Shown: positions 782-24,536 of the stretch, piece by piece | Position numbering within the stretch: position 1 is the stretch's first letter | How the letters are laid out: every line of letters starts with the position of its first letter | DNA from: a virus | Virus record (IMG/VR): IMGVR_UViG_3300050821_011222 | Location: 1 to 28,384 of that record | Direction: 5' to 3' (one strand) | Length of the DNA: 28,384 bases | Position numbers and translations under genes: made by a program | Notes under the pieces: model-generated | What the model was told of the DNA's origin: nothing | The model's database searches: none | The model's input: only the letters and a program-made list of their open reading frames with translations

Positions 782-879
782 CATCCCGCCGGGAAGACCG
801 TCGCGACGATGCCGGCGGTGACGAAGACCGTCAGCGCGAGCAGTACGGCGAACCATCCCAGCAGGGGTGCGGTATCCAT
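778..879 (-). CDS. 33-residue single-pass membrane protein
   Basis: ATG at 879 overlaps the MuF stop as TGATG. The product is 33 residues and almost entirely one hydrophobic helix (residues 5-30, LLGWFAVLLALTVFVTAG core), ending AGW. The couplings at both ends (TGATG upstream, GTGA downstream) are the main argument that it is translated. Tiny single-pass proteins of this kind recur through the window. Function unknown. Confidence 0.55.
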   Translation of the reverse strand: MDTAPLLGWFAVLLALTVFVTAGIVATVFPAGW

Positions 880-1679
880 CAGCTGAACCCCTTCACGATC
901 GGCTTCGAGACGCACCGGCAGTTGATGAGCTGCCCCGGCCATATCCTCGCCCTTACCTTGGGATCCGGATCGAACCAGCCTTCGGCGATGTTGTACCGCT
1001 TCCCGTCGTTCGCCAAGTGGGTCGGCCGCGGCTCTTTCCCAGCGTGCGAGTGCAGCCACAGCGCCTCGTCGATCCCGAGCTCGGTCTGCCGCGCCCGCTG
1101 CATCGCCGACGTCGCCATCTGGTTTTGCGTGAACGCGATCAGCGCGGCCCGCCGCTCCGTGACGCCGTACCGCGCCTGCAGCTCCTTCGACAGCGCGCCG
1201 AGGTCCCGCCCGGTCTGGACCGAGCGCATGACGAGGTCCTGGACCTGCGCGTGGTACTGCTCCGGGATGCTCTTGATCATGGCCACGTTGCCGGCGACGG
1301 TCGCGTCGAGGATGTCGCGCATCGCCCTGGTCATCTGGAAGTCGACCGTGACGCCAGCGTCCTTCAGGATCTTGCGCAGCGCGGCGTCGGAGCGCTTCCA
1401 CGCCGCTTTCGCGAACCATGCCGCCAGCGCCGGGGCGGCAGCATCGAAGTTCTTCCGCCACTGGACGCCGAGGCGTCGCAGCTCGCGCTCCAGCTCCTTC
1501 GCCGGCGATTCGTCCTGCGCCATGATCGGAGGAGTCCGGCGATACTGCGCCTTGAGGAATCGGTCATAGGAGGCCTGCATGTCCTTGATCAGCGCCCGCA
1601 GCTTCTTGCGGTAGATCGCCGCGATGCCGGCGTTAGGGAAAACCGCCCGCAGCACGCGCTCGCCCTTGCGCCGCCGCAT
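879..1679 (-). CDS. MuF-like head morphogenesis protein (SPP1 gp7/Mu gpF family)
   Basis: 266 residues. The C-terminal third holds the MuF signature: W208-LHSHAGKEPRPTH, then DGKRY, GWFDPDP and RIWPGQLINCRC (cysteines 254 and 256), ending KPIVKGF. The N-terminal two thirds are helical. In SPP1 and Mu relatives this minor head protein binds the portal and is packaged in the capsid. The ATG at 1679 follows the upstream stop by two bases. Unlike many phage MuF proteins, it has no extra toxin domain at its C-terminus. The portal gene, its usual neighbour, is about 12 kb upstream on the same strand. Confidence 0.9.
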   Translation of the reverse strand: MRRRKGERVLRAVFPNAGIAAIYRKKLRALIKDMQASYDRFLKAQYRRTPPIMAQDESPAKELERELRRLGVQWRKNFDAAAPALAAWFAKAAWKRSDAALRKILKDAGVTVDFQMTRAMRDILDATVAGNVAMIKSIPEQYHAQVQDLVMRSVQTGRDLGALSKELQARYGVTERRAALIAFTQNQMATSAMQRARQTELGIDEALWLHSHAGKEPRPTHLANDGKRYNIAEGWFDPDPKVRARIWPGQLINCRCVSKPIVKGFS

Positions 1680-7938: not shown

Positions 7939-7955
7939 GGCTTACAGCAGACAAC

Positions 7956-8507
7956 CTATGCCGCCCCAGCCTTCGCCCGGAACTTGTTCGGCGGCGCGTT
8001 CAGCGAAAGGTCCGGCTTGTAGGCGACCGGCTCGCCGGTGACGACCAGCGCGTAGTAATCGGCGCGGTCCTCGCTCTTGCGGGTAAAGCTGATCCCGCCC
8101 TCCAGCGTGCGGCGGGCCGATCTGACCTCGAACGTGAGCAGCGTCCCGTCCCAGGCCTCCGCGATGATGTCGTGGCCGCGGTTCGCCTTGACCGGCAGGT
8201 AAACGCGGAAGTCCCTCGCCATCAGGTCTGCGGCGACCAGGAACTCGGAGACCATCCCGACCACGCTGTAGCTGAGCGGTACGCTTACCCCACCAGTCAG
8301 GGCAACCCTAGCCTTCGGCGTCCCTTTGGCCGGGGCGGGGCGGCGCTGCGACGCCGGGGAGCCGAGAACGGGATGCGGGAGGGAGATGCCGTTCTCCTTG
8401 GCCAGCTGGTAGACCCGCTGCCGGCTGACCTTGACCCGGAAGGCAATCTCGCGGGCGCTGAAGCCCTCGGCGGCCAAATGGCTGATTTTCTTGGCTGTTT
8501 TGTTCAT
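7956..8507 (-). CDS. HTH protein with PD-(D/E)XK-like C-terminal domain (183 aa)
   Basis: Residues 8-40 form a Hin/resolvase-type helix-turn-helix (AAEGFSAREIAFRVKVSRQ, then RVYQLAKENG). After a proline-rich linker, residues 83-160 read like a PD-(D/E)XK fold: E88 in GMVSEFLVAADL, then VYLPVKANRGHDIIA with D113, then LLTFEVRSARR with E127 and R129. The usual E-x-K lysine is arginine, so catalysis is doubtful and the domain may only bind DNA. The gene is flanked on both sides by TTGACA-dyad promoters, which suggests it regulates them. Alternatives are a restriction-like or homing nuclease. Confidence 0.72.
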   Translation of the reverse strand: MNKTAKKISHLAAEGFSAREIAFRVKVSRQRVYQLAKENGISLPHPVLGSPASQRRPAPAKGTPKARVALTGGVSVPLSYSVVGMVSEFLVAADLMARDFRVYLPVKANRGHDIIAEAWDGTLLTFEVRSARRTLEGGISFTRKSEDRADYYALVVTGEPVAYKPDLSLNAPPNKFRAKAGAA

Positions 8508-8528
8508 GGGATTTTTCTACCCCTACCA

Positions 8529-8577
8529 TTGACACCATGTCTAGGTGACACTTATATATTGGTTGTCTCCCTGTCAA
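8529..8577. promoter_or_regulatory. Overlapping divergent promoters with dyad operator
   Basis: Plus strand: TTGACA (8529-8534), 17 bases, TTATAT (8552-8557), reading towards the gene at 8600. Minus strand: TTGACA (8577-8572), 15 bases, TATAAG (8556-8551), reading towards the HTH gene at 8507. The two -10 boxes use the same bases, so polymerase cannot occupy both. The plus -35 begins TTGACA-cca-TGTCTA (8529-8543), one base from the perfect dyad at 7924-7938. This looks like an autoregulated switch. Confidence 0.7.
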
Positions 8578-8599
8578 CCATGGGGAAGGGGAAAGCCCG

Positions 8600-9109
8600 A
8601 TGAAACTGGAACTCCGAAAGGTATCTTGGTCGAAGGCGCTGTCCGAGGAGACCCCCGCGTACTCCGCGCAGGTCTGGATCGACGGCCGACACTTCTGCGA
8701 CGTGTCCAATCACGGCCAAGGCGGCTGCGATTGCCAATATCCCCCGAAGGGGATGACCAACTCCGACTTCCGCCCGCTCCTCGAAGCGATGGAGGCGCGG
8801 ATCAAAGCGGAGTTTCCGCCCGAGACGGTCGACGTCGGCGACGGCGACGGCAGAACCTTTACGATGGAGCAAGACTTGGAAAGCCTCTGCCAGAAGGAAC
8901 TCTACCGGCTCGACCTAGCGAAAACGGTCAAGCGCGACCTCGCCAAGAAAGTAATGTGGTTAAAGGACGGCAAGCAATGGTCGGTGAAGATCGGCGCCGC
9001 GCCCTTGGACCAACTGATCCCGCGACTGAAGGCGAAGTACGGCATCGAGAAAACGCTCAACGAGATGACCCTCGACGAGGCCGTCGCCGCGTTGGAGAAA
9101 GCCGCATGA
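8600..9109 (+). CDS. Hypothetical protein, first gene of the plus-strand operon (169 aa)
   Basis: MKLELRKVSWSKALSEETPAYSAQVWIDGRHFCDVSNHGQGGCDC is a likely beta-rich N-terminal part. It is followed by a helical C-terminal half (LLEAMEARIKAEFP, KKVMWLKDGKQWSVKIG, DQLIPRLKAKYG). Similar proteins occur among phage accessory genes, but no function is known to me. AAGGGGAAAG lies before the ATG, about 45 bases after the -10. A seven-codon frame at 8580-8603 overlaps its start as ATGA. Confidence 0.78.
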   Translation: MKLELRKVSWSKALSEETPAYSAQVWIDGRHFCDVSNHGQGGCDCQYPPKGMTNSDFRPLLEAMEARIKAEFPPETVDVGDGDGRTFTMEQDLESLCQKELYRLDLAKTVKRDLAKKVMWLKDGKQWSVKIGAAPLDQLIPRLKAKYGIEKTLNEMTLDEAVAALEKAA

Positions 9110-9312
9110 CCTACAAACCGCCGACAGGAACGCAACTCGTCGGGTCGAGCGACCCCTTCGTCTTCAATGACGGCGGTCGCTGGTTCGTCGGGCAGAACTA
9201 CGACTACGAGGACCGCGACGGCAACATGGGCATGTCCACCGAGTACCTCGCCGACGCCGACGGCTACGCCAGCGCGACCGATGCCTACGCCGCGATGGAC
9301 GCGCTCCGATGA
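9106..9312 (+). CDS. Small acidic hypothetical protein (68 aa)
   Basis: ATG at 9106 overlaps the previous stop as ATGA. The sequence (PFVFNDGGRWFVGQNYDYEDRDGNMGMSTEYLADADGYASATDAYAAMDALR) is rich in Asp, Tyr and Gly and ends in a short helix. It may be a small domain built around a beta hairpin. Coupled upstream and downstream. Not recognised. Confidence 0.68.
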   Translation: MTYKPPTGTQLVGSSDPFVFNDGGRWFVGQNYDYEDRDGNMGMSTEYLADADGYASATDAYAAMDALR

Positions 9313-9497
9313 GCGCCAACGAGATCAAAATCCAGCCGCTCGCCGCCGTCACGCTCCCGGTTCGCGACTGGGCTCACGTCATCAACGCCGTCGAGTCATC
9401 CTTCCAGCGCAAGGTAAAGCGCGGGGACATCAAGGCGGCCGACGAGATGCGCCTGATTGATCTGTCAATCATCCGGCAAGTAGAGACGAGGAAATGA
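9309..9497 (+). CDS. Small hypothetical protein (62 aa)
   Basis: ATGA overlap with the gene before and after. MSANEIKIQPLAAVTLPVRDWAHVINAVESSF is followed by a basic turn and DEMRLIDLSIIRQVETRK. The strand-then-two-helix arrangement suggests a small DNA- or protein-binding unit; no family recognised. Confidence 0.65.
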   Translation: MSANEIKIQPLAAVTLPVRDWAHVINAVESSFQRKVKRGDIKAADEMRLIDLSIIRQVETRK

Positions 9498-9646
9498 AAC
9501 AGAAGTTGCCGACCTTCCTGGAGTTGGCCGAGAACAAGATCGCCCTGGCCGGGCCGCGCGACAAGGTCATCACGATCAAGGTCGCGATCAACACGGCCCG
9601 GATGATGGTCGAAGCCGAGAAAGCAAAAATGGAGAGCTCGAAATGA
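9494..9646 (+). CDS. 50-residue helical protein
   Basis: Short gene held on both sides by ATGA overlaps (9494 and 9643). MKQKLPTFLELAENKIALAG, then a PRDKVITIKVAINTARMMVEAEKAKMESSK helix. Its place in an unbroken chain of coupled genes is the best evidence that it is expressed. Function unknown. Confidence 0.6.
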   Translation: MKQKLPTFLELAENKIALAGPRDKVITIKVAINTARMMVEAEKAKMESSK

Positions 9647-10026
9647 CGACAAAGACGTTGGACGAAGCGGACCTGCGGCAGTTCACCGGCAGCGAGCAAT
9701 GGTACCGGCATGGGCTGGTCCCGAAAGTCATGTTTACCGACGGGGCGAAGCATGTCGCCGACGAGGGCGGCGCCTATTGGTTGCTCGACGAGATCGCGCT
9801 GGCGCAGAAGTTCGACAAGAAAGTAGCCGCCGAGGAGTTTCAGGTCTGGACGCTCCTCCGCGACGACGCGGCGCTCGGCAAAACCGGGAACGGAGCAACG
9901 CTGACCTGCGACGACGGGAACGATAACGTCGTCTCCCGCAAGCACATTGAGTTCACCGACTTCCCGCTGCCGCAGATCAAATTGTACTGCACCGGCAATA
10001 CGATCATGCTGCCGAGCGAATACTGA
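9643..10026 (+). CDS. DUF6876-like protein (127 aa)
   Basis: DLRQFTGSEQWYRHGLV, MFTDGAKHVADEGGAYWLLDEIALAQKF, EEFQVWTL and LTCDDGNDNVVSRKHIEFTDFPLPQIKLYC match the DUF6876 family as I remember it. That family has an FTGxxxWYRH start, a GGAYWLLDxIA core and an IxFTDFPLxxIxLY end. Found in bacterial and phage accessory regions; function unknown. Length is typical. Confidence 0.8.
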   Translation: MTTKTLDEADLRQFTGSEQWYRHGLVPKVMFTDGAKHVADEGGAYWLLDEIALAQKFDKKVAAEEFQVWTLLRDDAALGKTGNGATLTCDDGNDNVVSRKHIEFTDFPLPQIKLYCTGNTIMLPSEY

Positions 10027-10040
10027 GGGAGGGACGTGTC

Positions 10041-10379
10041 ATCTGGCTGCTGCTCAACGACTGCTGCTTCTCCATTGTCAGCAAGGACTGCCGGCGCGAC
10101 GAGCTGCTGGTCCGCGCCCGCCGCAAGGGGGACATCGAGAAGGTATTCGGCAAGGTCAAGGTGCGGCGCGACGCGAAGGCCGACTACCTCTACCGGGCCG
10201 CGATCAAGAAGAGCGCGATCGCCGAGGCGCTCAAGGGTGAGGTCGACCGGGTCACTTACCCCAACTTCAAGAGCTCGGTGACCGACGCCAAGCTGCACGG
10301 CGCCTACACGCGGGTCTGGAGTGCGCTCGGCCCGCTCCAGGAGAACTGGGACAAGTGGCCGATGTTCAAGGAGTTTTGA
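10041..10379 (+). CDS. Conserved phage protein with no standard start codon (112 aa)
   Basis: The frame reads (I)WLLLNDCCFSIVSKDC, then RDELLVRARRKGDIEKVFGKVKV, DYLYRAAIKKSAIAEAL and VTYPNFKSSVTDAKLHGAYTRVWSALGPLQ. This is a recurrent small phage protein whose relatives, from memory, begin Met-Trp-Leu. Here the Met position is ATC (10041), eight bases after a strong GGGAGGGA. No ATG, GTG or TTG exists in frame before GTG 10161, which would remove the conserved N-terminus; CTG 10023 is another candidate. So either a non-canonical start or a small sequence error. The previous gene stops at 10026. Confidence 0.68.
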   Translation: MWLLLNDCCFSIVSKDCRRDELLVRARRKGDIEKVFGKVKVRRDAKADYLYRAAIKKSAIAEALKGEVDRVTYPNFKSSVTDAKLHGAYTRVWSALGPLQENWDKWPMFKEF

Positions 10380-10381
10380 CA

Positions 10382-10495
10382 ATGGCTCACGAGCATTGCA
10401 CCATTTTTAGAGAACCGACGGCGGCGCTGCTCTTCGCCCTCGGCGAGGGCAAGGTCACCGTCGAGGACCTGGAGCGGTACGGGAAAAAACGGTGA
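10382..10495 (+). CDS. 37-residue hypothetical protein
   Basis: MAHEHCTIFREPTAALLFALGEGKVTVEDLERYGKKR. The ATG is two bases after the previous stop. An AAGGAG at 10366 provides the ribosome site. It is short but well formed, with a helix and a charged end. Function unknown. Confidence 0.5.
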   Translation: MAHEHCTIFREPTAALLFALGEGKVTVEDLERYGKKR

Positions 10496-10512
10496 TAGGT
10501 CGAGGGGCCACC

Positions 10513-11169
10513 ATGAACGACAAGCGTACTATTTTGGCGGAGTTTCAGAAGAAGGCGTCGGGCCGTCTCGAACTATTTTCCCTTACGACCTTTGAGGATT
10601 GCGGCGCCTATCTGTCTCGCAAGACCTACAATGTAGACTGGTCCAAAAGGTACGGCTATCTCTTCGAACAGACCGGCTTTGGAGGCGGCACCGAGGTAGA
10701 GGTTGGCGGCATCTACTTTTTAAGCGGACCCGTCGATGTCAAGATCGTAGAGCGCCCTACTACTTTGGTCAGCGGCGATGACCGCCCGCCCTGGCGGTCG
10801 GCGGCGACCAAAAAAATCCGCCAGCGCAACCGGACGAGGCGTCTCCAAAAACTTCCGAAAGAGTTTGCGCTTGAAGGCGGCGACCTGTTGGATTGGCTTC
10901 GGCGCAACGGCATCGAAGAGGATGGCGTCTGGTGCTCGGCGTGCAGAGATTACATGCCAGGCCAATCGCTTTGCCGGCACATTTGGTGGTGCGACGTATC
11001 ATGCTGGTACTCGACGCCAGAGGACCGCCCCTGCGCATCCTGCATCAACGGTCGCTGCCGAAACGACTTTGAGATGACGCCCGGAACTTATGCCTTCGAC
11101 GATGGGCCACTATGGTTTTGGGGCGGCCAGCCTGAGCTTACATGGCCAGCTCGTTTCCGGGCGGGTTAA
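10513..11169 (+). CDS. Cysteine-rich, probably zinc-binding protein (218 aa)
   Basis: Start set at ATG 10513, with GAGGGG five bases upstream, rather than GTG 10492. The N-terminal 100 residues look alpha/beta. A basic stretch (KKIRQRNRTRRLQKLPKEF) follows. The C-terminal 90 residues hold about ten cysteines in pairs (WCSAC, LCRH, WWCDVSC, PCASC, NGRC), consistent with two zinc sites. Base composition is more AT-rich than in its neighbours, a hint of separate origin. Not recognised. Confidence 0.7.
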   Translation: MNDKRTILAEFQKKASGRLELFSLTTFEDCGAYLSRKTYNVDWSKRYGYLFEQTGFGGGTEVEVGGIYFLSGPVDVKIVERPTTLVSGDDRPPWRSAATKKIRQRNRTRRLQKLPKEFALEGGDLLDWLRRNGIEEDGVWCSACRDYMPGQSLCRHIWWCDVSCWYSTPEDRPCASCINGRCRNDFEMTPGTYAFDDGPLWFWGGQPELTWPARFRAG

Positions 11170-11170
11170 A

Positions 11171-11740
11171 ATGACCTACCTGACCGCCAGGGCCAGACAG
11201 TTTGCCACCGCCGCTCACGAGGCGGTCGGCCAGTTGCGTCTGTGGACGAACGAGCCGTACATCGTGCACCCGGCCGCGGTGGCCGCCATCGTCGAAACGG
11301 TCCCGCATACGCCGGAGATGGTCGCCGCGGCCTGGCTGCACGATACGGTCGAGGATACCCGCGTCACGCTCGACGATGTCCGCGCCGTATTCGGCAACGA
11401 GGTCGCCAAGCTGGTCTGGTGGTTGACCGACGCCTCGCGGTCCAGCGACGGCAACCGGGCGACGCGCAAGGCGATCGACCGCGCGCACCTCGCCAAGGCG
11501 CCGCCGCACGCGCAGACGATCAAGCTCGCCGACATCATCGACAACGGCGCGACGATCGAGGCGCGCGATCCAGGATTCGCGAAGGTCTGGCGCGAGGAGA
11601 AGCGGCTGCTGCTCGCCGTGATGGACAAGGGCGACCCGACGCTGATGAAGAAAGCATTGGAGGACTTTGATGGGACGAGAACTCAGACGTGTACCGCTGG
11701 ACTTCGACTGGCCGGTCGGCAAGACGTGGGAGGGATTTGA
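11171..11740 (+). CDS. SpoT/MESH1-like HD phosphohydrolase (189 aa)
   Basis: The HD motifs of RelA/SpoT-type hydrolases are all present: YIVHPAAVAAIV (H33), AAWLHDTVEDT (H57, D58, E61, D62) and TIKLADIIDNGATI (K118, D121, N125). Such stand-alone proteins (MESH1/small alarmone hydrolase type) remove pyrophosphate from (p)ppGpp; others have different nucleotide substrates. Length is typical of the stand-alone class. There is no synthetase domain here, but a synthetase-like domain ends the portal fusion protein. The last 22 residues overlap the next gene by 71 bp and look unconserved. The start ATG is one base after the previous stop. Confidence 0.88.
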   Translation: MTYLTARARQFATAAHEAVGQLRLWTNEPYIVHPAAVAAIVETVPHTPEMVAAAWLHDTVEDTRVTLDDVRAVFGNEVAKLVWWLTDASRSSDGNRATRKAIDRAHLAKAPPHAQTIKLADIIDNGATIEARDPGFAKVWREEKRLLLAVMDKGDPTLMKKALEDFDGTRTQTCTAGLRLAGRQDVGGI

Positions 11741-12563
11741 AAATCCCCTTCATACCGCGACGAAGTGCGCGACGTGCGACGGCACCGGCTACTCCGGGAC
11801 GGCGAAGAGGCTCACCGATCTCTGGTACGGCCACGCGCCGTTCGTTCCAGAGGACCGCGGCAGCAAGTGGTTCCTGCCGAGCGATGACGTGATCTTCGAG
11901 CGCGCGAGGGCCAACGTAACGCGGGCTCCCGAGTATTATGGCCGCAGCAAGAACGCGGTCGAGGACGAGGCGCTACGGCTCTGCCGCCTCTTCAACGGCC
12001 AATGGTGCCACCACCTCAACGACGACGACGTCTACGCGCTGATCGTGGCAGGCAGACTGGTCGACTTTACCCACAGTTGGTCGCGGGAGGAGGGCCGCTG
12101 GCAACCGAGGGTGCCGTTCGTCCTGCCGACCGCGCGGGAGGTCAACGTCTGGAGCCTGTCCGGCATGGGCCACGACTCCATCAACCAATGGGTCTGCGTC
12201 AAGGCGGAGTGCAAGCGCGTCGGCGTCCGCCATACCTGCGTAGTCTGCGACGGCGAGGGCGAACATTGGCCCTCCGCCGAGGCGAAGCAGGCCTACGAGG
12301 ACTGGCAGCCGACGCCTCCGCCGGCTGGCGACGGCTTCCAGATGTGGGAGACGACGAGCGAGGGCTCGCCGATCTCCCCGGTGTTCGCCACCGCGCTCGA
12401 GCTGGCGCAGTACCTCGCCGCGCACAACCGCGGCATCGACAAGGGGACGACGGCCGAGACGTGGCTCAAGTTCATCGAGGGCGACGGCTGGGCGCCGACG
12501 ATGATAAGCACACCGGAAGCCGGCTTGGTGACCGGCGTCCAGGCCATCGCCGCAGGGTTCTGA
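11670..12563 (+). CDS. Conserved phage protein with two CxxCxGxG motifs (297 aa)
   Basis: Begins MGRELRRVPLDFDWPVGKTWEGF, the start of a widespread phage hypothetical family. Two DnaJ-type zinc motifs are present, CATCDGTG (C33, C36) and CVVCDGEG (C190, C193), far apart in sequence but likely paired in one site. Other conserved stretches are WCHHLNDDDVYALIVAGRLVDFTH, GHDSINQWVCVKAEC and QMWETTSEGSPISPVF. Start chosen at ATG 11670; a TTG precedes it. Role unknown. Confidence 0.85.
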   Translation: MGRELRRVPLDFDWPVGKTWEGFENPLHTATKCATCDGTGYSGTAKRLTDLWYGHAPFVPEDRGSKWFLPSDDVIFERARANVTRAPEYYGRSKNAVEDEALRLCRLFNGQWCHHLNDDDVYALIVAGRLVDFTHSWSREEGRWQPRVPFVLPTAREVNVWSLSGMGHDSINQWVCVKAECKRVGVRHTCVVCDGEGEHWPSAEAKQAYEDWQPTPPPAGDGFQMWETTSEGSPISPVFATALELAQYLAAHNRGIDKGTTAETWLKFIEGDGWAPTMISTPEAGLVTGVQAIAAGF

Positions 12564-12772
12564 TGCCGCCGCCCGACCTGAGAACGACCCGCACCTATTA
12601 CTGGACCTGGCAGGCCTGCAGCGTCGCGTTCGCGATCGGCATCGGCAGCATCGCGTACCTGATCCTGAGCATCGGCGAGGAGACGCCGGCGGATTCCCTG
12701 GCGATCGGCATCATCGTCGGGATCGTCGCGACGAGCACCTGGCACCGGACGAAATGGAAGGACGGCCGATGA
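12563..12772 (+). CDS. Two-helix membrane protein (69 aa)
   Basis: ATG overlaps the preceding stop as TGATG. After a polar head (PPPDLRTTRTYYW), two hydrophobic segments follow: about residues 14-34 (WQACSVAFAIGIGSIAYLIL) and 43-58 (SLAIGIIVGIVATSTW), separated by an acidic loop (GEETPAD), with a basic end. Immediately followed by another membrane protein; the pair could act together, for example in lysis or superinfection exclusion, but nothing shows which. Confidence 0.68.
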   Translation: MPPPDLRTTRTYYWTWQACSVAFAIGIGSIAYLILSIGEETPADSLAIGIIVGIVATSTWHRTKWKDGR

Positions 12773-12918
12773 TCTTACAGATCGAGGTGCTGCTTGGCTT
12801 CGTCCTGCTTCTCTGCGCCGGAGGCTTGCTCGTTTTCGGCCGGGTCCGCGTTGCCGGGTTCTTGCTGGTCGGGTCCGGCATCCTCCTGACCGCCGTGCAG
12901 ATCGCGGGGTTCCGATGA
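12769..12918 (+). CDS. 49-residue two-helix membrane protein
   Basis: ATGA overlaps at both ends. Two hydrophobic segments (residues 5-23, EVLLGFVLLLCAGGLLVFG, and 27-45, VRVAGFLLVGSGILLTAVQ) are joined by a tight basic turn (RVRV), so a helical hairpin. Partner of the preceding membrane gene by position. Function unknown. Confidence 0.6.
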   Translation: MILQIEVLLGFVLLLCAGGLLVFGRVRVAGFLLVGSGILLTAVQIAGFR

Positions 12919-13112
12919 CCCCGCTCGAACGCATGGGCCACAAGCTGATCGCCGAGCGCCGGCCGACGTACCGCACGATGATCCGGCTCCGCGACGACGC
13001 GATCGGGCGCGGACTTCAGGAACTGGCGATAACGTGCGGCTGGAGCGCCTGCCGGCTGGGCGACGAGGCCGTCGCGGAGCAGACGCGGGAGATCATAAAC
13101 AAATGCCGATGA
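12915..13112 (+). CDS. Small hypothetical protein (65 aa)
   Basis: ATGA overlap with the gene before. MTPLERMGHKLIAERRPTYRTMIRLRDDAIGRGLQELAITCGWSACRLGDEAVAEQTREIINKCR is basic and helical with two cysteines. Not recognised; kept because of its coupling and coding character. Confidence 0.58.
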   Translation: MTPLERMGHKLIAERRPTYRTMIRLRDDAIGRGLQELAITCGWSACRLGDEAVAEQTREIINKCR

Positions 13113-13661: not shown

Positions 13662-13870
13662 GTCGCCTCCTCGGCGGAGCGCAGGCGCGCCTCGCATTGC
13701 CGGACCCGCGTCAGGCCGGCGCCGAGGGCCAGGATCGCGTTCTGCAGCTCGCGGTCGGCGCCTTGCAGCCTCTCGATGACCTCGGCGAGGTTCTGCCGGG
13801 CCGCCTGAAGCTCGGTCGTCGCCTCGTGGATCAAAACCCTGGGGGAGGGTGGCATCCCTGTCTCCGTCAC
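13658..13870 (-). CDS. Small coiled-coil protein downstream of the portal gene (70 aa)
   Basis: GTG 13870 overlaps the portal stop as GTGA; an ATG five codons on is the alternative. Residues 12-65 form one uninterrupted helix with heptads (EATTELQAARQNLAEVIERL, then ADRELQNAILALG, RVRQCEARLRSAEEA). By position it may be a small virion or assembly protein. Confidence 0.65.
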   Translation of the reverse strand: MTETGMPPSPRVLIHEATTELQAARQNLAEVIERLQGADRELQNAILALGAGLTRVRQCEARLRSAEEAT

Positions 13871-16800
13871 TTGCCCTCCATGCCCCAGTTGCCGTCGCCG
13901 TCGGTTTGGTAAGCCTTCTCGTAGATCGTCCGCGCCATCTCCTGGAGCTCGTCGAACGACTTGCCGGCCAGGCTGCCGGTGCGGATCGAGTCGTAGAGCT
14001 TGTGGCCCTGCTCCTCCTTGGCCTGCGTCATCGCCTTGCTGTTGAACTGCAGCTCAGCGACCAGCCCGCCGGGGGTGCGGAAGTTTACCAGGATGTCGCG
14101 ATAGCCGCTCGGCGATGAGCCGACATGGCGGTCCTTGACGCGCAGTACGTTGTCGCCCTGCTTGGCGATGAAGGCGGCCGCGGCGTCGCGCGTCTTCTCC
14201 ACCGAGTCCCCGACTACGGTGCCGCGCAGCACGTCGCGGAGCTTGGTGAAGTCGCCGCCGAGCTCGTCCTTGAGCTTCCGCTCCGACGATTCGCGCGTCT
14301 TCAGGATCGAGCCGCCGACCTCGGGGCCGAACTTCGGCTTCGATCCCGTAGCCTCCGCGATGTGCTCGACCATCGCGCGGAACGCCGGCTCCTCGGCCCG
14401 CGCCCGATCGTACAGCTCGTCGAGCGACTTGACGGGCTGCGTCGATTCCCCGAACTCGCGCACCATGTTCTTGCGGATGTCGGGCTTCGTCTTCATCGGC
14501 TCGCCCTTCTCGGCGTAGTCGGACAGCTTGCCGATCAGGAAGATGTCGCCGCCGAGGCGGTAGCCGTTGAAGCCCATGCGGTCGGCGATCTCGACCGCGT
14601 TGTTCTGGATGAACAGCTGCGGGGCTTCCTCGTCGAACTCCTCCTTGGTGACGCTCTTCGGCGACTTGCCGAGCCAGGCGCCGACGAGCCGCTTCGCCGC
14701 GTCGCTGTCGAAGTCGCCGAGGTCGACGAGGTTCGGCTGCTTCTTGACCTTGTACTTCTTCGGCTGGCCCCACTGCGCCGCGATCTCAGGGAAGGCGGAA
14801 ACATAGACGCCCTTGCCCTCGGCCATCCCGGACTGCTCCTCATTCTCGGGACCGGCCCCGCGGTAGACGGTATCCGGCATCCTCGGCCCCGAGTCGGCAT
14901 GCGGGATCGTTCCCGGCTTCGCCCAACTTTTCGCCGGCTGACCGACCGTGAGGAGCGGTTCTTCCTCGTCAGTCTTTTTTTTTGAAGCGCCGCCCGGCGC
15001 CGACGCGAACTCGCCGCCCTTCGTCGTGAACTCGCCGCTCTTGTCGCGGGGGTGCTTCGATTCCTCCCACAGCTCGTCGAGCGCTAGCGCGGCGTCGTGG
15101 GCCTGCTCCTCGCCGGTCTCCTCGACCGCGAGCAGCAAGAGGATCAGCGCGTCGAGCACCGAGTCGTCGCGTTCCTCGTCGCCGACCTGACCGGCCTTCT
15201 CCAGCTCGGAGATGCGCGCGGCGACCTCCTTCACCCCGCCGAGGACGTCGACGGCGTTGCGCAGCACCCCGCCGAGCACCTCCTTGGCGCCGCCGAGCGA
15301 GAAGTGGAACTGGTCCATCAGGTGGTTGACGGCGTAGGCCGCGACCGCAGTAGCGCCGAGCGTAACCCCGGTCATCCCGCCGAGCCCGATCGCGGTGACG
15401 GCATGCTCGACGATCTGGTGCACGGCCGGCAGCAGAATGGCGTCGGTGACGTGGAACTTCGCCATCCCGGCGGCGTGCTTGGCCGCGAAGTCCTTGACCG
15501 CCTTCGCGCTCGCCGCGCGGCCGCCGTCGGACGAGAAGAACGAGCGTACCTTGTCGACGTGGCCGGCGTGCTCCTTGCGCTCCTCCGACGTCGCCTTCTC
15601 CAGCGCCTCGGCGGTCGCCTTCTCCATCACCTTCGTCGCGTCGGGGCGTTTGACCTCCGGCGCCGGGGCGCGCCGCTGTACCATCGCGCTGCCGCGCGCC
15701 GCCGGCCGCGCCGGGCCGCCCGGCCTCCCCGCCGACGTCCGCTTCGGCGCCTGCTGCCCGCCGCCGCCGGAACCGAACTGCCCCTTGTTCTCCGGCTGGC
15801 CGCGGGGATGTTTGGATTCCTCCCAGCCGGCGTCGCCGATGAGCGCAGCCTTCGCCTTGTCGGCGGCGTCGGGGTCGACCTCCGCGAAGCGCTCCGGTCC
15901 GAACTCCAGCGGGCCAGCATAGGGCTCGACCTTCGACAGATCAACGTCGCCGGGATCGTAGGTGATCGTAACGTGCGGCTTGTAACCGGGCCAATCCCAT
16001 GATGCGCCGACTTCGCGGATGTCCTCCCATCGCCGCGTCAGGCGCGCCGATTCGAATCGCAGGACGACCGCCCCTTTGTCGCCGAGCAGCTCGACCAATC
16101 TCCCGCCATTGCCCGGCACGACGACCTTGGCCTCGCCGGTCCCGATGTCGGCCCACTCGACCGGCTCCTTGCTGAAGGCGACGGTGACGTGGATGTCCTC
16201 GGGCGGCAGCGTCTTCTTGATGCCGTTCGCATGCACCCACTTGATGAGGTCGCCGGCGTTGAGCAGCGGGCGGTTGACGTAGAGAGTACGCGGTCCCGGC
16301 GCCTCGTCGCCGACGATCTCCTTCGCCAGCTTCAGGTCGCGCTCGCGGTTGAGGAAGCCTTTCAGCTTCTGCGGCGGCGCCAGTACGACGCCCTCGCTCT
16401 CCGGGCCCGGCTTCGACGGGTCGCCGGCCTCGCGGTCCGCGAGGTAGTAGCGGGTCAGCGTAGCGTCGCCTTCCCGGTCGCCGGCGAGCCCGGTGATCCT
16501 GCCCTTCAGCCCGGTTTCCTCGAACGCCTCCTTGATGGCGTTGGCCTGCAGCGACAGGCTCGGCTCGACGCGGCCCTTCGGGAAAGTGCTGGAGTACCCG
16601 CCGAAGGCGTTCTTCGGCTGCACCAGCCATACCCGGCCGTCCTTCTCGCGGATGATCAGCCCGGAGGCCAGCTGCTTGCCCTTGGCGCTGTCCGGCAGCG
16701 GCGCCTCGTCTTCGATGTCGGTCTGGCCATCGACCTCGTTCCAGTCGCCGTCCGCCGGCGGCTTCCACTCCTTGAACGCGATCCCGTTCAGCTCCTTGAC

Positions 16801-19800
16801 CGGCAGCGCGTCGCCGGCGGGGAAGATCACGGTCGAGGTCTTCTTCTTGGGGTCGCCCTCGGCGCCGAACGTCTTGGCCCGCTTCGCGATGTCATTTTTG
16901 CGCGCGATCATCTTGTCGGCGAGCGCGTCGGAACCACCACGCGCCTTGATCACCTCGCGGATCTCGTCGTCGGGGATTGAGGTGACCTTGGCCGCCGACT
17001 CGCGGAACTCGGCCGGGGTGATGTCGCCGAAGATCTCGGAGGCGTCCGGCGCGATCTTCGGGTCGCGCATGGTGTCGATCTCGGTGACCTTGTCGCCGAA
17101 CGTCTCGCCCTTCGGGGCTCCCCGCGCCCGGTACTCCAGCGCGCCGCCGAGGTCGACGGAGAAGACGTCGTGGCCCGCTGCGACCAGGTTGTCGCCCCCG
17201 GTGCCGACCGCGTCGTAGTTCGACGTCCAGGCGTGGGCGAGGAAGTCGCGCTTCGCGCGGCGTACCTCGTCGTCGGACATCTCCGAGGCGTTCGTCTTGT
17301 CGAGCTTCTCCATCTCGGAGGCGACGTGCTCCCCGCCGGCGACGTCGCGGTAGCGCAGCGTCGGCGCCCCGGCGAGTTCGTAGAGGTCGGCTGCGGTCAT
17401 CTCGTTGCGGACGTGGTCCTTGGAGCGGCCCTGCTTGACGTAGAACTTCCGCCCCTTCTCGTCCTCGAACACGCCGCCGGGGTTGGAACCCATCTGCGGG
17501 CCGACCTTCTTCAGCTTCGAGGGGTCGAGCGGCGGTGGGGGAGCGCGATGGTACGCCTCGCCGCCCCCGGGCGGCAAGTGCAGGCCGAGCTGCGGCATCT
17601 GGAAGTGCTGCGCCGGACCGCCGTGCCAGCCGTAGCCCTTGGCCTTCGGCGCCGACGATCCTCCGCCGGTCGAGGCGAACTCGCCGGCGTTGCCGGGCTG
17701 GCCCCTCGGATGCTCGCTCTCCTCCCAGGCGTCGGCGGCCAGGCCCGCGAACAGCGGGTCAAGGTCGGCGACGTCCCCGCTGAAAGGGAGCACCGTGGCG
17801 TTCCGCCGCCGCGCCTCCCCCTCGTCGTGCGCCGTGACGGGGCGCGTGGAGACCGTGCCGATCGGCGCGCAGAGGAAGCGGTCGTTCTCGGCGTCGAGGA
17901 TGGCCACCCGCTCGTTGTCGGCGTCGTTGACGAAGCCGACGGCGCGCCCGGTGCCGGAGGCGTAGCGGACGCGGCTGCCGATCCGAAGCCCTTTCCTCGC
18001 GGCCTCGCCGCGCGCCGTCGGCGCGATCTGGTTGCCCGAGGCGTCGGTGGCCGGGATGTCGAAGCCGCGCATCCACTCGTAGCGGTCCGCCCAGGGCAGG
18101 CCGCGCGGCGGCGCCGGCTCGTCGAGCGCTTCATCCTCCTGGAACGCGGGGTCGTGCGCCTCTCCGCCCCCGCCGCCAGCACCGGCAGCCGGCTGCGGCG
18201 CCTGTCCACCGTGCTGCTGCTGGCCGGGCTCGCCGATGACCGCCTCGAGGCCCTTGCCGGCGCCCTCCGGCACCAAGCCCTGCATCTCCTCCTGCTTGAG
18301 TTCCGGCACGTCGTCGGGGTCGAGGTCGCTGTACGGCATCGCGGGGTCGTCGATGACGTTCTTGCGGACCTCCTCCGGCGCCAGCGCCCCCATATCGACG
18401 TAGATCTGGTCGCGCTCGCCCTGCGCCTTCTGGAGGTCGGCCTTCTCCTTCTCGCTCATCTCCCACAGCGGCTCGAACTCGAACGTGATCTCGGGATCAA
18501 CTTCACCCCACAGCGAGAGCTGGATGAAGTTGATCACCTTCGTCAGGTTCGGCCGCTCGAAGCGGTTCTGGTAGCCGGCGATCGTGTCGTAATAGGCGCG
18601 TACCTCGCTCTCGGCCGAGGCGTTGAGCCCCGCAGGCTGTAGCCCCGTAAACTTGATGAGCGGGATGCGTGCGGCCGACGCGACATGCTCCTGGGACTGC
18701 GCCTCGAGTTCGTGCAGTCCGCCGAGCGGGGCACTCACGTTCTTAAAGTCTTCGGTATTTTTGTTGAAAATAAACAGCCCCATGTTGTCGCGGAAGGCGT
18801 TGAAGGCGTCGGCGCGCGCCAACAGCGCGCCGGGCCCGCCGCTGGCGCCGGGCGCCAGGATGGTCTGCACGTCGGTGGCGAGGCACATCACCGAGAAGGC
18901 GTGGATCAGCTCGCCGACGCTGTCGCGCGTCCGCAGCCAGATGTCGACGTAGGGCAGCACCAGCTGCGACAGCGACAGCCCGCCGAAGCTGTACGCCGGC
19001 TTCAGCAGGTCCGGCACCGGATGGCCGACGAACGGCAGCAGCCGCGAGACGTGGATCTGGCGTCCCATCACGTACCAGTTCTGCGGGGCGTACCAGTCGT
19101 CGGCGAGCGGGTTGATCGCGTTGTAGGCCATCGGGAAGGTCCACACCGGCTCGATCGGCTTCACCGCGCGCAGCGGGTTGTCCTTGCCGACCTTGCCGCG
19201 GCTCATCTCGTCGCGGCCGTCGCCGATGTCCTTCTTCAGCTCCTCGTCGCTGTCGTCGCCGTCCTTCTTGCCGAACTTCAGCGCGAGGTGGGTACGGCCG
19301 AACAGGCCGTCGTCGCGGCAGATGCAGTACATATGGTCGCGCAGCGCCAGGCGGGCGATCTCGTCCTTGAGCGCCTTCACCTTCTCCATCTTGCCGGCGG
19401 CCTTGACCTTGTCGGCACGCTTCTCCGGGTCCTCGTCGGTAAAGCCGCGGCCGCGCAGCGCCGGCTCGCCCTGCTGCTCTTCCCCCTCCGGCTTCCAAGG
19501 CTCCGGCGAGAGGTCCTGGCCCGGCACCTTCGGCGCGGTGCCGCCGCCCTGACGCTCCGCCGAGACGCGGTCGCGCTCGGCATCGTCCTTCTCCTCGCGC
19601 TCCTTCTCGCCGGTGACCTCGAAGTCGATCCACTTCCGGGTGGCATCGTCGGCGATCGTCTCCGAGATGACGCGGTACTCGGTACGCTGCGCCAGCTCGG
19701 AGAGGAACGGGTAGCCGAGGAACTGCAGCCCCTGCGACGCCACGGAGTTGAACAGCGGTCCCAGCGCGGCCCACTGGCCGTCGGCCCAGGCCGTGGCCTG

Positions 19801-20106
19801 GTCCATCGCCATCTTCTTCCCGGCCTTCGACTCGAAGAAACCCTTCGGCACGACGCCAGGCGGCGGCTTCGGCAGCTGGAGGAACGGCGTGCTACGGGCG
19901 ACCTTGGCCCTGCCCTTGGCGGCGATCATCTCCGCCAGCGCCATCAGCGCCTTCGGGTCGCCCCAGGCGCCGGCCGGCGGCTTCGGCGCGGCGGGAACGG
20001 TGGCGTTGCCGGCCTGGCGGGCCAGCTTGCGGGCCTCCTTCACCTCGGGCGGGAGCGGCTTGCGGCCCGACCCCTGACGGCGGCCGCCGTGGCCCGGGGA
20101 GGTCAT
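13867..20106 (-). CDS. Portal protein fused to multiple enzyme-like domains (2079 aa)
   Basis: Domains in order. 1-50: basic head with GGRRQGSGRKP. About 90-625: DUF1073/Acb1-type portal (FLGYPFLSELAQRTEYRVISE, NWYVMGRQIHVSRLLPFVG, IPLIKFTGLQPAGLNASAE). 700-760: SH3-sized unit. 875-1080: kinase-like fold (K891, N963-D965, VDLGGAL 984-990). 1147-1265: Nudix (box 1178-1200, KEAFEETGL). 1273-1412: Acb1-type 2H phosphoesterase (H1306-T1308, H1378-T1380). 1483-1640: helical with a hydrophobic stretch. 1741-1865: ADP-ribosyltransferase-like. 1905-2045: RelA/SpoT-synthetase-like (D1958, GYRD 2001, ELQF 2018). WEES[K/E]HPR linkers at 794, 1428 and 1680 part the blocks. Typical portals are 450-700 residues. 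The ATG overlaps the upstream stop (ATGA). Portal and Acb1 calls are firm; the kinase and ART calls are tentative. Confidence 0.9.
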   Translation of the reverse strand: MTSPGHGGRRQGSGRKPLPPEVKEARKLARQAGNATVPAAPKPPAGAWGDPKALMALAEMIAAKGRAKVARSTPFLQLPKPPPGVVPKGFFESKAGKKMAMDQATAWADGQWAALGPLFNSVASQGLQFLGYPFLSELAQRTEYRVISETIADDATRKWIDFEVTGEKEREEKDDAERDRVSAERQGGGTAPKVPGQDLSPEPWKPEGEEQQGEPALRGRGFTDEDPEKRADKVKAAGKMEKVKALKDEIARLALRDHMYCICRDDGLFGRTHLALKFGKKDGDDSDEELKKDIGDGRDEMSRGKVGKDNPLRAVKPIEPVWTFPMAYNAINPLADDWYAPQNWYVMGRQIHVSRLLPFVGHPVPDLLKPAYSFGGLSLSQLVLPYVDIWLRTRDSVGELIHAFSVMCLATDVQTILAPGASGGPGALLARADAFNAFRDNMGLFIFNKNTEDFKNVSAPLGGLHELEAQSQEHVASAARIPLIKFTGLQPAGLNASAESEVRAYYDTIAGYQNRFERPNLTKVINFIQLSLWGEVDPEITFEFEPLWEMSEKEKADLQKAQGERDQIYVDMGALAPEEVRKNVIDDPAMPYSDLDPDDVPELKQEEMQGLVPEGAGKGLEAVIGEPGQQQHGGQAPQPAAGAGGGGGEAHDPAFQEDEALDEPAPPRGLPWADRYEWMRGFDIPATDASGNQIAPTARGEAARKGLRIGSRVRYASGTGRAVGFVNDADNERVAILDAENDRFLCAPIGTVSTRPVTAHDEGEARRRNATVLPFSGDVADLDPLFAGLAADAWEESEHPRGQPGNAGEFASTGGGSSAPKAKGYGWHGGPAQHFQMPQLGLHLPPGGGEAYHRAPPPPLDPSKLKKVGPQMGSNPGGVFEDEKGRKFYVKQGRSKDHVRNEMTAADLYELAGAPTLRYRDVAGGEHVASEMEKLDKTNASEMSDDEVRRAKRDFLAHAWTSNYDAVGTGGDNLVAAGHDVFSVDLGGALEYRARGAPKGETFGDKVTEIDTMRDPKIAPDASEIFGDITPAEFRESAAKVTSIPDDEIREVIKARGGSDALADKMIARKNDIAKRAKTFGAEGDPKKKTSTVIFPAGDALPVKELNGIAFKEWKPPADGDWNEVDGQTDIEDEAPLPDSAKGKQLASGLIIREKDGRVWLVQPKNAFGGYSSTFPKGRVEPSLSLQANAIKEAFEETGLKGRITGLAGDREGDATLTRYYLADREAGDPSKPGPESEGVVLAPPQKLKGFLNRERDLKLAKEIVGDEAPGPRTLYVNRPLLNAGDLIKWVHANGIKKTLPPEDIHVTVAFSKEPVEWADIGTGEAKVVVPGNGGRLVELLGDKGAVVLRFESARLTRRWEDIREVGASWDWPGYKPHVTITYDPGDVDLSKVEPYAGPLEFGPERFAEVDPDAADKAKAALIGDAGWEESKHPRGQPENKGQFGSGGGGQQAPKRTSAGRPGGPARPAARGSAMVQRRAPAPEVKRPDATKVMEKATAEALEKATSEERKEHAGHVDKVRSFFSSDGGRAASAKAVKDFAAKHAAGMAKFHVTDAILLPAVHQIVEHAVTAIGLGGMTGVTLGATAVAAYAVNHLMDQFHFSLGGAKEVLGGVLRNAVDVLGGVKEVAARISELEKAGQVGDEERDDSVLDALILLLLAVEETGEEQAHDAALALDELWEESKHPRDKSGEFTTKGGEFASAPGGASKKKTDEEEPLLTVGQPAKSWAKPGTIPHADSGPRMPDTVYRGAGPENEEQSGMAEGKGVYVSAFPEIAAQWGQPKKYKVKKQPNLVDLGDFDSDAAKRLVGAWLGKSPKSVTKEEFDEEAPQLFIQNNAVEIADRMGFNGYRLGGDIFLIGKLSDYAEKGEPMKTKPDIRKNMVREFGESTQPVKSLDELYDRARAEEPAFRAMVEHIAEATGSKPKFGPEVGGSILKTRESSERKLKDELGGDFTKLRDVLRGTVVGDSVEKTRDAAAAFIAKQGDNVLRVKDRHVGSSPSGYRDILVNFRTPGGLVAELQFNSKAMTQAKEEQGHKLYDSIRTGSLAGKSFDELQEMARTIYEKAYQTDGDGNWGMEGK
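15001..15069 (-). repeat. Linker repeat 3 in the portal fusion (WEESKHPRDKSGEF)
   Basis: Residues 1680-1702. Third copy of the WEES-HPR block, followed by a second GGEF (EFTTKGGEFAS), between the helical segment and the ADP-ribosyltransferase-like segment. Confidence 0.8.
15757..15825 (-). repeat. Linker repeat 2 in the portal fusion (WEESKHPRGQPENKGQF)
   Basis: Residues 1428-1450. Second copy, followed by a glycine run (GSGGGG), between the Acb1-type domain and the helical segment. Confidence 0.82.
17659..17727 (-). repeat. Linker repeat 1 in the portal fusion (WEESEHPRGQPGNAGEF)
   Basis: Residues 794-816. First copy, followed by ASTGGG, between the portal/SH3-sized part and the kinase-like domain. 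Confidence 0.82.
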
Positions 20107-22578: not shown

Positions 22579-22643
22579 GGGGGGATTTTCCTCCACTTGA
22601 AAAACTTGATTCCTTCCGTGCTCCGAAATTCAACCGCCGTCAA
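22551..22643 (-). CDS. Possible 30-residue peptide with IKFFK motif
   Basis: TTG 22643 overlaps the TerL stop as TTGA. The frame reads TAVEFRSTEGIKFFKWRKIPPWYRGCSSA and overlaps the next gene. The GIKFFK part is encoded by the 17-bp repeat also found at 26049-26065. It could equally be noise in a leader; kept because the same peptide recurs. Confidence 0.3.
   Translation of the reverse strand: MTAVEFRSTEGIKFFKWRKIPPWYRGCSSA
22597..22613. repeat. 17-bp exact repeat, copy 1 (TTGAAAAACTTGATTCC)
   Basis: Identical to 26049-26065. On the minus strand both copies encode G/I-K-F-F-K in the frame noted and lie just upstream of the start of the next minus-strand gene. Confidence 0.7.
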
Positions 22644-24334
22644 CGCCCCCGCCGGCGGCGCATGCCGCGCTGCCGGATCAGCGCGACGAGCTCCTGCGTA
22701 TACTCCGCCGGCGGCGCGTCCTTCGGGGCGAAGCGGATCATGCAGGCGTCCGCCAGGTTGGGGCTCTTCGTCTTCGGCGGCTTCTTGTTGATCACCATCT
22801 TGCCGACCCCGTTCGGGGCGAACGTCGGCTGGCTGAGCTCGGCGACCAGTTTCCTGTGGTTCGGGCACTTCGAGGAGATCGAGACGATCTCGTCCGGCGA
22901 ACATTTGACGCCGTCGACTATCCATCGGTGCGTCTTCTGGAACCGCCGCCGCAGCGCCCACCAGCCCTGCGCCTTGCGGTTCAAGAAATAGTCCTTGTTC
23001 AACCGACCTTTGTCGCCGTCGCGGCCGATGGTGCCGTCGACGATACCGTCCGGGTCGACCACGCCCTCCGAGCTGCGGAAGCCGACGGCGTAGATCGGCT
23101 TGGCGCCGAGGGCGCGGCGGTTCTCGTTGATGACGCGGGCGTCGCCGCGTACCCCGGCGCCGAGCCCGTCCGAATCGTAGTCGAAGGCCGGGTATCCGTG
23201 CAGGTCGCAGAAGTCGAACGCCCGCTGCACGGTGTCGAAGATGTCGGCGCCCTTGCCGCTCCACTCCTCGCTGCCCTCGATCAGGATGCCGCGCGACCGG
23301 CAGATCGCGTTCTTGTCGATGCCCTCGTCGGCCACGTCGAGCGACATGCCCCGTGCGCCGGTGAGTTCGACGTTCAGCCTTACATGGGCGTCGATCGCGC
23401 TCTCCACCCACACGCCCGGAATGACGATGCCCTCGACCGACGCGGAGTAATTGCAGTCGACCTCCTGCGCGATCGTGACCGGGTCCATGCCCTTGCCGCC
23501 CTGATCCTCCGGGAGCGGCAGCTTGTCGTACCACTCCTGGTCCTTCCTCGGGTCGTCGCGCCAGTGGAACAAAAAAACGTCGATCTTGCCGCTCCAGCGG
23601 TTTTCCGCGAACTTGTTGTTGCGCCCGTTCACCGACGACAGGTCGATGCGGCAGTTGGTCGTGAACGAAAGCGCGTGCTCTACGCTTTCCGCGTTCTCCA
23701 GGTAGGATGCTTCGTCGACGAAATAGATCGACTCACGATCGCCCCGTCCGATCTGGTCGCCGCCCTCGCCGATGATGATCGAGCCGGTCTCCGGGAACAT
23801 CAGCCGCATGTAGGGGGCGTCGCGCTGCTCGACCCATCCGGCGCGGAACTCCTCCGGCAGGTACTTCATGAACATCCGCGCCTTCGGCAGCAGCGGCTTC
23901 ATCGTGTCGAGCTTGTCTACGTAGTCGACGAGGCGGGAGCCGTAGCCGATGGCGAGGCTGTCGTTGAAGATGCAGAGCGTGCAGCCGAGCGCGGTGGAGA
24001 GCCAGGACAGGCCCATGTCGCGCGACTTCTCCGTCAGCCCGCGCTGCCGGGCGCGCCAGTGTCCGATGACCCAGTCCACCCATTCCCGCTGCCGGTCGAA
24101 CAACACGAACGGGATCACCGTCGGCAGGCCGATGTCGGCGTTGCGGGGGTCGAAGGTTACCCCGAAGTCGCTTATGAAGTCCGCCGGATGCTCGCGGTAG
24201 TGATCCTTGAGGTCGTCGAGCGTGGTGCGCGTCGCCCCGGCGGCGATCTCCTTGTCGACCTGCGCGCGCAGCAGCTCGAGCGATTGGCGGCGCTGCCAGA
24301 AGATTTCCTCATAATCGGGGTTTTTCCAATCCAC
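22640..24334 (-). CDS. terL: Terminase large subunit (564 aa)
   Basis: DNA-packaging motor ATPase and nuclease. Start set at the GTG at 24334 (VDWKNPDYEEIFWQRR), one base after the upstream stop; the longer frame is cysteine/arginine-rich shadow. The Walker A-like motif is KSRDMGLS (103-110), a deviant form seen in many phage TerL proteins. Walker B is SIYFVDEAS (202-210, D207, E208). The coupling motif is SSVNG (233-237). The RuvC-like nuclease acidic residues are D333 (SLDVADEG), the 385-389 DYDSD cluster and D529 (NLADA). Length is normal. TerS-like and a 66-residue gene precede it, forming the packaging operon. Confidence 0.95.
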   Translation of the reverse strand: MDWKNPDYEEIFWQRRQSLELLRAQVDKEIAAGATRTTLDDLKDHYREHPADFISDFGVTFDPRNADIGLPTVIPFVLFDRQREWVDWVIGHWRARQRGLTEKSRDMGLSWLSTALGCTLCIFNDSLAIGYGSRLVDYVDKLDTMKPLLPKARMFMKYLPEEFRAGWVEQRDAPYMRLMFPETGSIIIGEGGDQIGRGDRESIYFVDEASYLENAESVEHALSFTTNCRIDLSSVNGRNNKFAENRWSGKIDVFLFHWRDDPRKDQEWYDKLPLPEDQGGKGMDPVTIAQEVDCNYSASVEGIVIPGVWVESAIDAHVRLNVELTGARGMSLDVADEGIDKNAICRSRGILIEGSEEWSGKGADIFDTVQRAFDFCDLHGYPAFDYDSDGLGAGVRGDARVINENRRALGAKPIYAVGFRSSEGVVDPDGIVDGTIGRDGDKGRLNKDYFLNRKAQGWWALRRRFQKTHRWIVDGVKCSPDEIVSISSKCPNHRKLVAELSQPTFAPNGVGKMVINKKPPKTKSPNLADACMIRFAPKDAPPAEYTQELVALIRQRGMRRRRGR

Positions 24335-24335
24335 G

Positions 24336-24536
24336 TCACTGCGCCCGCCGGCGCCCGAGCTTGCCTGTAGATTTGCCGTCAACTTTGATGAGCATCTGCG
24401 CCGCGATGCGCTCTGCAGCCCGTTCAACGTCGACCTTGAACCCGAGCCGGTGCAGGAAGCCATACCAGCGCAGCAGCGCCTTCGCGCGCCAGCCGATCTG
24501 CAGCCCAAGATTCATCATGATCTCGTTCGGCGCCAT
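24336..24536 (-). CDS. 66-residue protein between the terminase genes
   Basis: The ATG overlaps the TerS-like stop as TAATG, and its stop is one base before the TerL start, so it is an integral part of the packaging operon. MAPNEIMMNLGLQIGWRAKALLRWYGFLHRLGFKVDVERAAERIAAQML is helical and basic with a KLGRRRAQ end. Perhaps a packaging accessory protein, by position only. Confidence 0.65.
   Translation of the reverse strand: MAPNEIMMNLGLQIGWRAKALLRWYGFLHRLGFKVDVERAAERIAAQMLIKVDGKSTGKLGRRRAQ

Follow-up and report, generated by a model that had tools for sequence, protein, structure and literature searches.

A phage portal protein carrying a train of exchangeable effector-like modules, with a recurrent header motif as a candidate loading and processing signal

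For most phages, the identity of the injected proteins and the means of their selection and release are little settled. Passages of the polyvalent-protein account of Iyer et al. (2017, PMC5512222) describe 2H, PBECR and inorganic pyrophosphatase domains fused singly to portals, and proteins of phages and conjugative elements with several effector or counter-defence domains per polypeptide. Parts of a second account (PMC9503650) describe single fusions of Nudix, 2H and ADP-ribosyltransferase (ART) domains to the portal, to MuF or to the head protease, for which packaging and injection are proposed. In the isolates Pseudomonas phage psageB2 and Synechococcus phage Yong-M2-251, a Phage_portal_3 domain is fused directly to Acb1. 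In P1 and T4, short N-terminal signals load injected proteins into the head (P1 DarB and the T4 internal proteins), and the heads undergo proteolysis (PMC9024508). In the MuF-Apk2 toxin system, the Aph1 immunity protein hydrolyses the (p)ppApp that the toxin makes (PMC12226406). Single-effector portal fusions are already known; the portal described here carries many modules, and multi-module portals of this kind recur in many environmental phages.

The gene comes from a virus record of 28,384 bases, analysed as a whole and referred to below as the window. A single ORF (13867..20106, minus strand) encodes a protein of 2079 aa and 224.5 kDa, made up of a portal and an effector train. It starts with ATG and runs without interruption for 2079 codons, and GC3 is 0.86-0.95 in all of its segments, so that it reads as one gene. 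One unbroken frame of 2079 residues was what the sequence-only reading, in which no strand was named, had claimed, and this was borne out. That reading had named a frameshift or a misassembly joining separate genes among the findings that would tell against the claim; both are ruled out by the co-linear relatives L004 and L155. Translation of the modules from internal starts was also rejected, since no start codon with a Shine-Dalgarno-like site was found within 60 codons upstream of the tested borders. The tail beyond the portal amounts to 156 kDa per subunit, or approximately 1.9 MDa for 12 subunits. Elsewhere in the window are an IS605 OrfB-type HTH domain at the window end (5-493, minus strand), an HNH endonuclease (5047-5934, minus) and a DUF6527 protein (3332-3676, minus; PF20137 E=1.1e-9) that adjoins two genes, 3677-4333 and 4337-4903. 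The DUF6527 family is found beside bacterial ubiquitin-like operons.

The portal domain occupies aa 90-625 (18232..19839, minus). Residues 236-567 match Pfam Phage_portal_3 with E=1.9e-65 (221 bits against a cut-off of 33.8, model positions 33-356 of 357) and the PHROG 146 portal profile matches the domain with E=3.5e-94, so that both collections call a portal. The limits of 90-625 given earlier are reasonable. A MuF-type head morphogenesis protein is encoded approximately 12 kb downstream of the portal gene (879..1679, minus; phrog_324 E=3.1e-74). In L005, Orisa01 and PhiXhv-5 the head/MuF gene directly follows the portal gene, unlike in the window, where the gap between the two (1.7-13.9 kb) is partly filled by opposite-strand genes (8600-13112, plus). 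A candidate large terminase of 622 aa is encoded at 22640-24508 (minus); its profile match is weak (phrog_5989 E=0.006). In 385 alphaproteobacterial genomes, full-length portal_3 frames are mostly 462-495 aa long; two are longer, at 1087 and 1256 aa, and the 1256-aa frame belongs to the genome used to seed the search.

The first recognizable module of the tail, aa 862-1090 (16837..17523, minus), has no Pfam match, and its relatives are numerous in viral contigs. In an alignment of 37 sequences the ATP-binding Lys, the helix-C Glu, the catalytic N-x-D and Asn, and the metal-binding Asp are all invariant. An AlphaFold model of the module has a mean pLDDT of 94.9, and the nearest solved structures to it are CtkA (Z 15.2, rmsd 3.4, 210/227 residues) and HipA (Z 10.7). 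By its predicted fold, the module is a CtkA/HipA-like kinase. It is followed by a Nudix module at aa 1145-1248 (16363..16674, minus; Pfam E=2.5e-11, score 44.1 against a cut-off of 21.1). Its version of the Nudix box G-x5-E-x7-R-E-U-x-E-E-x-G-U reads GRVEPSLSLQANAIKEAFEETGL, in which the metal-binding EE is present, the first E is replaced by L and the R by K. Next, at aa 1273-1416 (15859..16290, minus), is a module of the anti-CBASS 2H phosphodiesterase Acb1, matched by Pfam with E=3.3e-37 (127.8 bits against a cut-off of 27) and containing both H-x-T catalytic motifs, HVTVAF and HVTITY. A helical module at aa 1480-1675 (15082..15669, minus) is shared, among the collected loci, only with L004 and L155.

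The chain ends in a Tas1-like RelA/SpoT (RSH) alarmone synthetase module, aa 1906-2079 (13870..14391, minus), assigned by its match to Tas1 both by profile (E=1.6e-14) and by fold (Z 13.0 over 162 residues). The synthetase residues K, D, GYR and ExQ are invariant in a four-sequence alignment, and in NCBIfam the module weakly resembles the C-terminal part of XopAD-type effectors, at a score well short of the cut-off (E 0.004). With a single-sequence query, no close relatives of the C-terminal 345 aa were found in viral contigs. Between the helical module and the synthetase, aa ~1740-1905 (14392..14889, minus) had been proposed as ADP-ribosyltransferase-like. This segment had no match in Pfam or NCBIfam, and no significant BLASTP match to an ART-PolyVal module; in the predicted model it is mostly below pLDDT 50. 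The call is therefore unproven, and the label is better dropped until a fold or an activity supports it.

The sequence-only reading is thus supported in part, and is right as to a portal with a polyvalent train. Its Acb1 unit is firm by Pfam and by its two H-x-T motifs, and its Nudix unit by its Pfam score, with a box that departs from the pattern at two positions; its kinase-like unit is supported by alignment, model and the CtkA match, and its RelA/SpoT-like unit by the profile and fold of Tas1. Its ADP-ribosyltransferase unit is unproven, and the placement of such units on the portal proved less exceptional than it had thought. Judged by its predicted domains, the 2079-aa protein fits the description of a polyvalent protein, with kinase, Nudix, Acb1 and RSH units on one chain in a head-gene context. 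It resembles the polyvalent proteins in the passages of PMC5512222 in carrying several such domains, and differs in that a single portal bears four recognised effector units as well as a helical module. The domain types are those that the parts of PMC9503650 used here place on head proteins; the fusions there are single, whereas here there is a train with repeated headers (described below). The psageB2 and Yong-M2-251 fusions are approximately 600 aa long, with one effector and no header.

A small alarmone hydrolase (HD_4, Mesh1/SpoT-NTD-like) is encoded at 11090..11740 on the plus strand, convergent to the portal gene and 2.1 kb from the synthetase end. It matches PF13328 with E=5.5e-15 as well as SpoT and Mesh1 PDB chains, has the HD and ED residues in place, and is a candidate antidote gene. 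The other record with a portal-borne synthetase of this family (G011/L276) has a diverged relative of the portal gene (4476-9821, minus) and a related hydrolase, again convergent, one gene away (3499-4038, plus). The hydrolase gene was found in none of 12 portal records of at least 30 kb without the synthetase, a comparison of small numbers; one 29-kb record (G007) has the synthetase without the hydrolase, and in the record G023 an HD_4 gene occurs but no synthetase. By analogy with MuF, the pairing suggests that some portals may be toxin carriers accompanied by an antidote gene. The closest precedent for such a pair would be MuF-Apk2 with IapK/Aph1 (PMC12226406), in which a RelA/SpoT-fold domain, there a toxin, likewise ends a phage head carrier and an HD hydrolase gene is linked to it. 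In our phage, however, the portal takes the place of MuF as carrier, the synthetase, a putative toxin, has Tas1 as its closest match, and the hydrolase gene converges on the carrier gene instead of following it in one operon.

Comparison with related loci shows that the modules are exchanged. L004, another environmental phage, encodes a 2407-aa protein that is co-linear with the window protein to aa 1696 (approximately 1,700 residues), with 67% and 62% identity in two long blocks; beyond its third header copy the sequence is unrelated and forms a different C-terminal module. The portal chain of L155 also ends in another module, and a header-led Tas1-like synthetase, 46% identical to that of the window, is found in the next gene, the start of which overlaps the portal gene end. 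The L155 portal ORF (4302-11999) has in addition an intein-like insert that interrupts the portal domain at approximately aa 634-876, starting CLTGDTLIEADQG and ending VHN ahead of SSEGE. L168 has an unfused portal, beside which Nudix and kinase are encoded by two separate genes, each header-led. When loci were annotated with the profiles built here, reshuffled trains were found on at least 15 other portals, in orders that include portal-Acb1-kinase-Nudix, portal-Nudix-kinase, portal-motif-kinase-Nudix-motif and portal-Nudix-RSH-motif. Cultured phages and a prophage have shorter versions: the 703-aa protein of Pseudomonas phage Orisa01 (PP179329) reads portal-FDENKHPRSDDGKF-ART, that is, portal-motif-ADP-ribosyltransferase; Xanthomonas phage PhiXhv-5 has portal-motif and then another module; and the version in a prophage of Helicobacter pametensis reads portal-motif-LPD3.

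The header is a motif of 14-17 residues, about which the sequence-only reading was silent. In the window it takes the form W-E-E-S-[KE]-H-P-R-[DG]-x(n)-G-[EQ]-F and occurs in three copies, all at module borders: WEESEHPRGQPGNAGEF at aa 794-810 (17677..17727, minus), WEESKHPRGQPENKGQF at aa 1428-1444 (15775..15825, minus) and WEESKHPRDKSGEF at aa 1680-1693 (15028..15069, minus), the last being the copy after which a different module follows in L004. It is absent from all other frames of the window. The more general consensus is [WF]-[DE]-E-x-x-H-P-R-[DG]-x(n)-G-[KRQE]-F, usually followed by a Gly-rich linker. A strict scan used only the first nine residues, W-E-E-x-x-H-P-R-D, as degenerate DNA, so that G-x-[FWY] was not in the query; in viral contigs G-x-[FWY] followed in frame in 31/31 copies, and in 257 Gb of bacterial and archaeal genomes in 4/13. 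Strict and relaxed scans together gave at least 226 header copies in at least 180 distinct ORFs from at least 137 loci, and at least 32 loci have two or more header-bearing ORFs. In the 180 canonical copies among the matches listed, 177 have E at position 3 and 124 have S, A or G at position 4; H-P-R and G were demanded by the search pattern, and their fixity in these copies is therefore no evidence. Variants were seen as well: QPRDxxG[RK][FW] in L141, L032, L064 and L120, and a likely one, HNPYHDQKGRF, in the 1087-aa portal frame of an alphaproteobacterial genome (L262). The header family is thus wider than its canonical form.

Among the matches listed, 48 copies lie within 40 aa of the protein start and 1 within 40 aa of the end, copies in the same protein are at least 106 residues apart, and the 20 residues after the header are Gly-rich. 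At least 8 positions of the header are fixed in the protein sequence, yet across unrelated phages the synonymous codons at fixed positions vary freely; this codon variation rules out a DNA-level recombination site. Together with the positional distribution, it indicates that the header is a protein-level signal, belonging to the module downstream of it and present on separate proteins of the same phage. A Pfam scan of 146 post-header segments found ADP-ribosyltransferases, topoisomerase IB, zeta toxin, GNAT acetyltransferases, S-adenosylmethionine lyase, PBECR1 nuclease, RelA_SpoT, 2H RNA ligase, MuF-C and others, so that the modules behind the header are, by family assignment, those of the polyvalent-protein repertoire. 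Loci fetched through the header are necessarily biased toward it, but of six distinct long portals found through kinase or Nudix instead, five have it. Some fused modules have no header directly in front, namely Nudix and Acb1 of the window and Acb1 of psageB2 and Yong-M2-251. P1 Dar proteins were considered as header carriers and rejected, there being no header match in P1 bases 1-50,000. The motif was not found in the passages of PMC5512222 drawn on here. Nor was the header string, a paper on capsid-targeting motifs in injected effectors, or one treating DUF2213 together with the portal found in the literature searched; most subscription journals lay outside that search, so this absence is weak evidence. 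Within that literature the header motif appears to be undescribed.

The C-termini of portals point into the head interior. The tail, with its exchangeable kinase, Nudix, Acb1, helical and alarmone synthetase modules, would thus be packed inside the head with the DNA. As the portal stays with the empty particle, fused enzymes would reach the host only if cut free, and since no internal start with a Shine-Dalgarno-like site precedes the modules, release would be by proteolysis. The best candidate for a processing or loading signal is the header, which lies at three of the module borders. We suppose that it is read during head assembly, serving as a loading tag on stand-alone cargo and, inside a portal chain, most likely as a site for the head maturation protease, with cleavage probably after the near-invariant Glu (E|S/A/G). 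Cleavage would divide the chain into predicted pieces of 86, 68, 26 and 44 kDa; the portal ring would stay in place, and the pieces of approximately 68, 26 and 44 kDa would be free in the head, to be ejected with the DNA. In the host, Acb1 would then degrade the signals of CBASS, and Nudix those that are nucleoside diphosphates. Host proteins would be modified by the kinase, and the product of the synthetase would be (p)ppApp or (p)ppGpp, from which the HD hydrolase encoded near the portal gene would shield the producing cell. It counts against this scheme that some modules have no header in front, so that only a part of them could be released individually.

Several observations bear on this proposal. 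The P1 capsid protein is cleaved at E120|S121 (PMC9024508), and the SPN3US protease cleaves after A-X-E with Ser favoured next (PMC10052503); the header, in which a near-invariant Glu precedes Ser, Ala or Gly, fits such known head-protease sites by analogy. The position of the header at the very start of stand-alone cargo suggests a loading role similar to that of the DarB and T4 internal-protein signals, with the difference that here the signal also repeats within one chain. For the N4-like Yersinia phage fHe-Yen8-01, the depositors mark the homologues that bear the kinase and the Nudix as particle-associated, and for at least one phage this supports the packaging of such modules. On the other side, the header is longer than a protease site needs to be, which points to binding as well. 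A DUF2213 protein, named head maturation protease in PHROGs, is present in all 13 of the other portal records that reach 30 kb and was not seen in the two shorter records, the window and the 29-kb G007. It speaks against the proposal that header phages outside the portal_3 group have no DUF2213, and that in four of them Peptidase_S78_2 scores above cut-off instead, so that no single protease accompanies the header. Peptidase_S78 (PF04586), considered as a common protease, was found in 0/20 records. As in the parts of PMC9503650 cited above, Nudix occurs on capsid-processing peptidases: the DUF2213 protease of the L004 phage (L245:19-2064, plus) has an N-terminal Nudix and a degenerate header, LDDEYRRDAKGEF, before the protease domain, and another DUF2213 protein (L240:811-2970, plus) has a seemingly recurrent phage sequence, GKPQRQAVAIAYKQA, ahead of its Nudix, possibly another module marker. 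Taking these points together, we judge the chances about evenly balanced that the portal carries injected cargo and that the header serves both for loading and as a signal at which the head maturation protease cuts. We put forward more tentatively, as somewhat less probable than that, the wider proposal that the header is a phage-wide cargo signal for head loading and protease release, common to many unrelated tailed phages, whose toxin and counter-defence modules swap freely between portals, stand-alone proteins and other head proteins.

Three other explanations were weighed. The header could be a docking tag only, which binds a head component and is never cut, with the enzymes staying with the particle or acting in the producing cell; fused modules would then retain it because motif and module move as one cassette. 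The 48 N-terminal copies among the matches listed agree with this, since they stand at the extreme start of stand-alone proteins where cutting would remove few residues, and any cut at E|S would fall ahead of the invariant H-P-R and G-x-F; the N-terminal capsid-targeting signal of P1 DarB, for its part, spans 30 residues or fewer (PMC9024508). Fused modules would nevertheless need no tag of their own, yet the header stays intact in diverged portals while the surrounding linker drifts, and an uncut portal would be unable to deliver cargo into the host; we consider docking without cutting unlikely. Less probable still, to our minds, is that the full-length protein is never cut and that the modules, rather than being injected, act late in the producing cell while carried on surplus unassembled portal, against targets such as CBASS signals or competing phages. 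The annotation of homologous kinase and Nudix modules as particle-associated in the N4-like phage speaks against this, as do L168 and L155, where the same modules are separate header-led genes, an arrangement not needed for action in the cytoplasm. It must be set against these points that the portal gene is a late gene with an abundant product, that fused Acb1 and Nudix could act on small molecules, and that the portal-Acb1 fusions of isolates have no header. Finally, that the header is a functionless, neutral linker spread by recombination with the modules is highly improbable and already disfavoured: among the matches listed it does always lie in linkers with Gly-rich sequence after it, but its protein sequence is held fixed against freely varying codons in unrelated phages, and it is retained at protein starts, where no linker is needed.

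Should the header indeed serve for loading and cutting, the injected effectors of environmental phages could be recognised directly from sequence, new counter-defence enzymes and toxins among them. It would also account for the way in which a portal present in 12 copies can carry so many enzymes that nevertheless reach the host.
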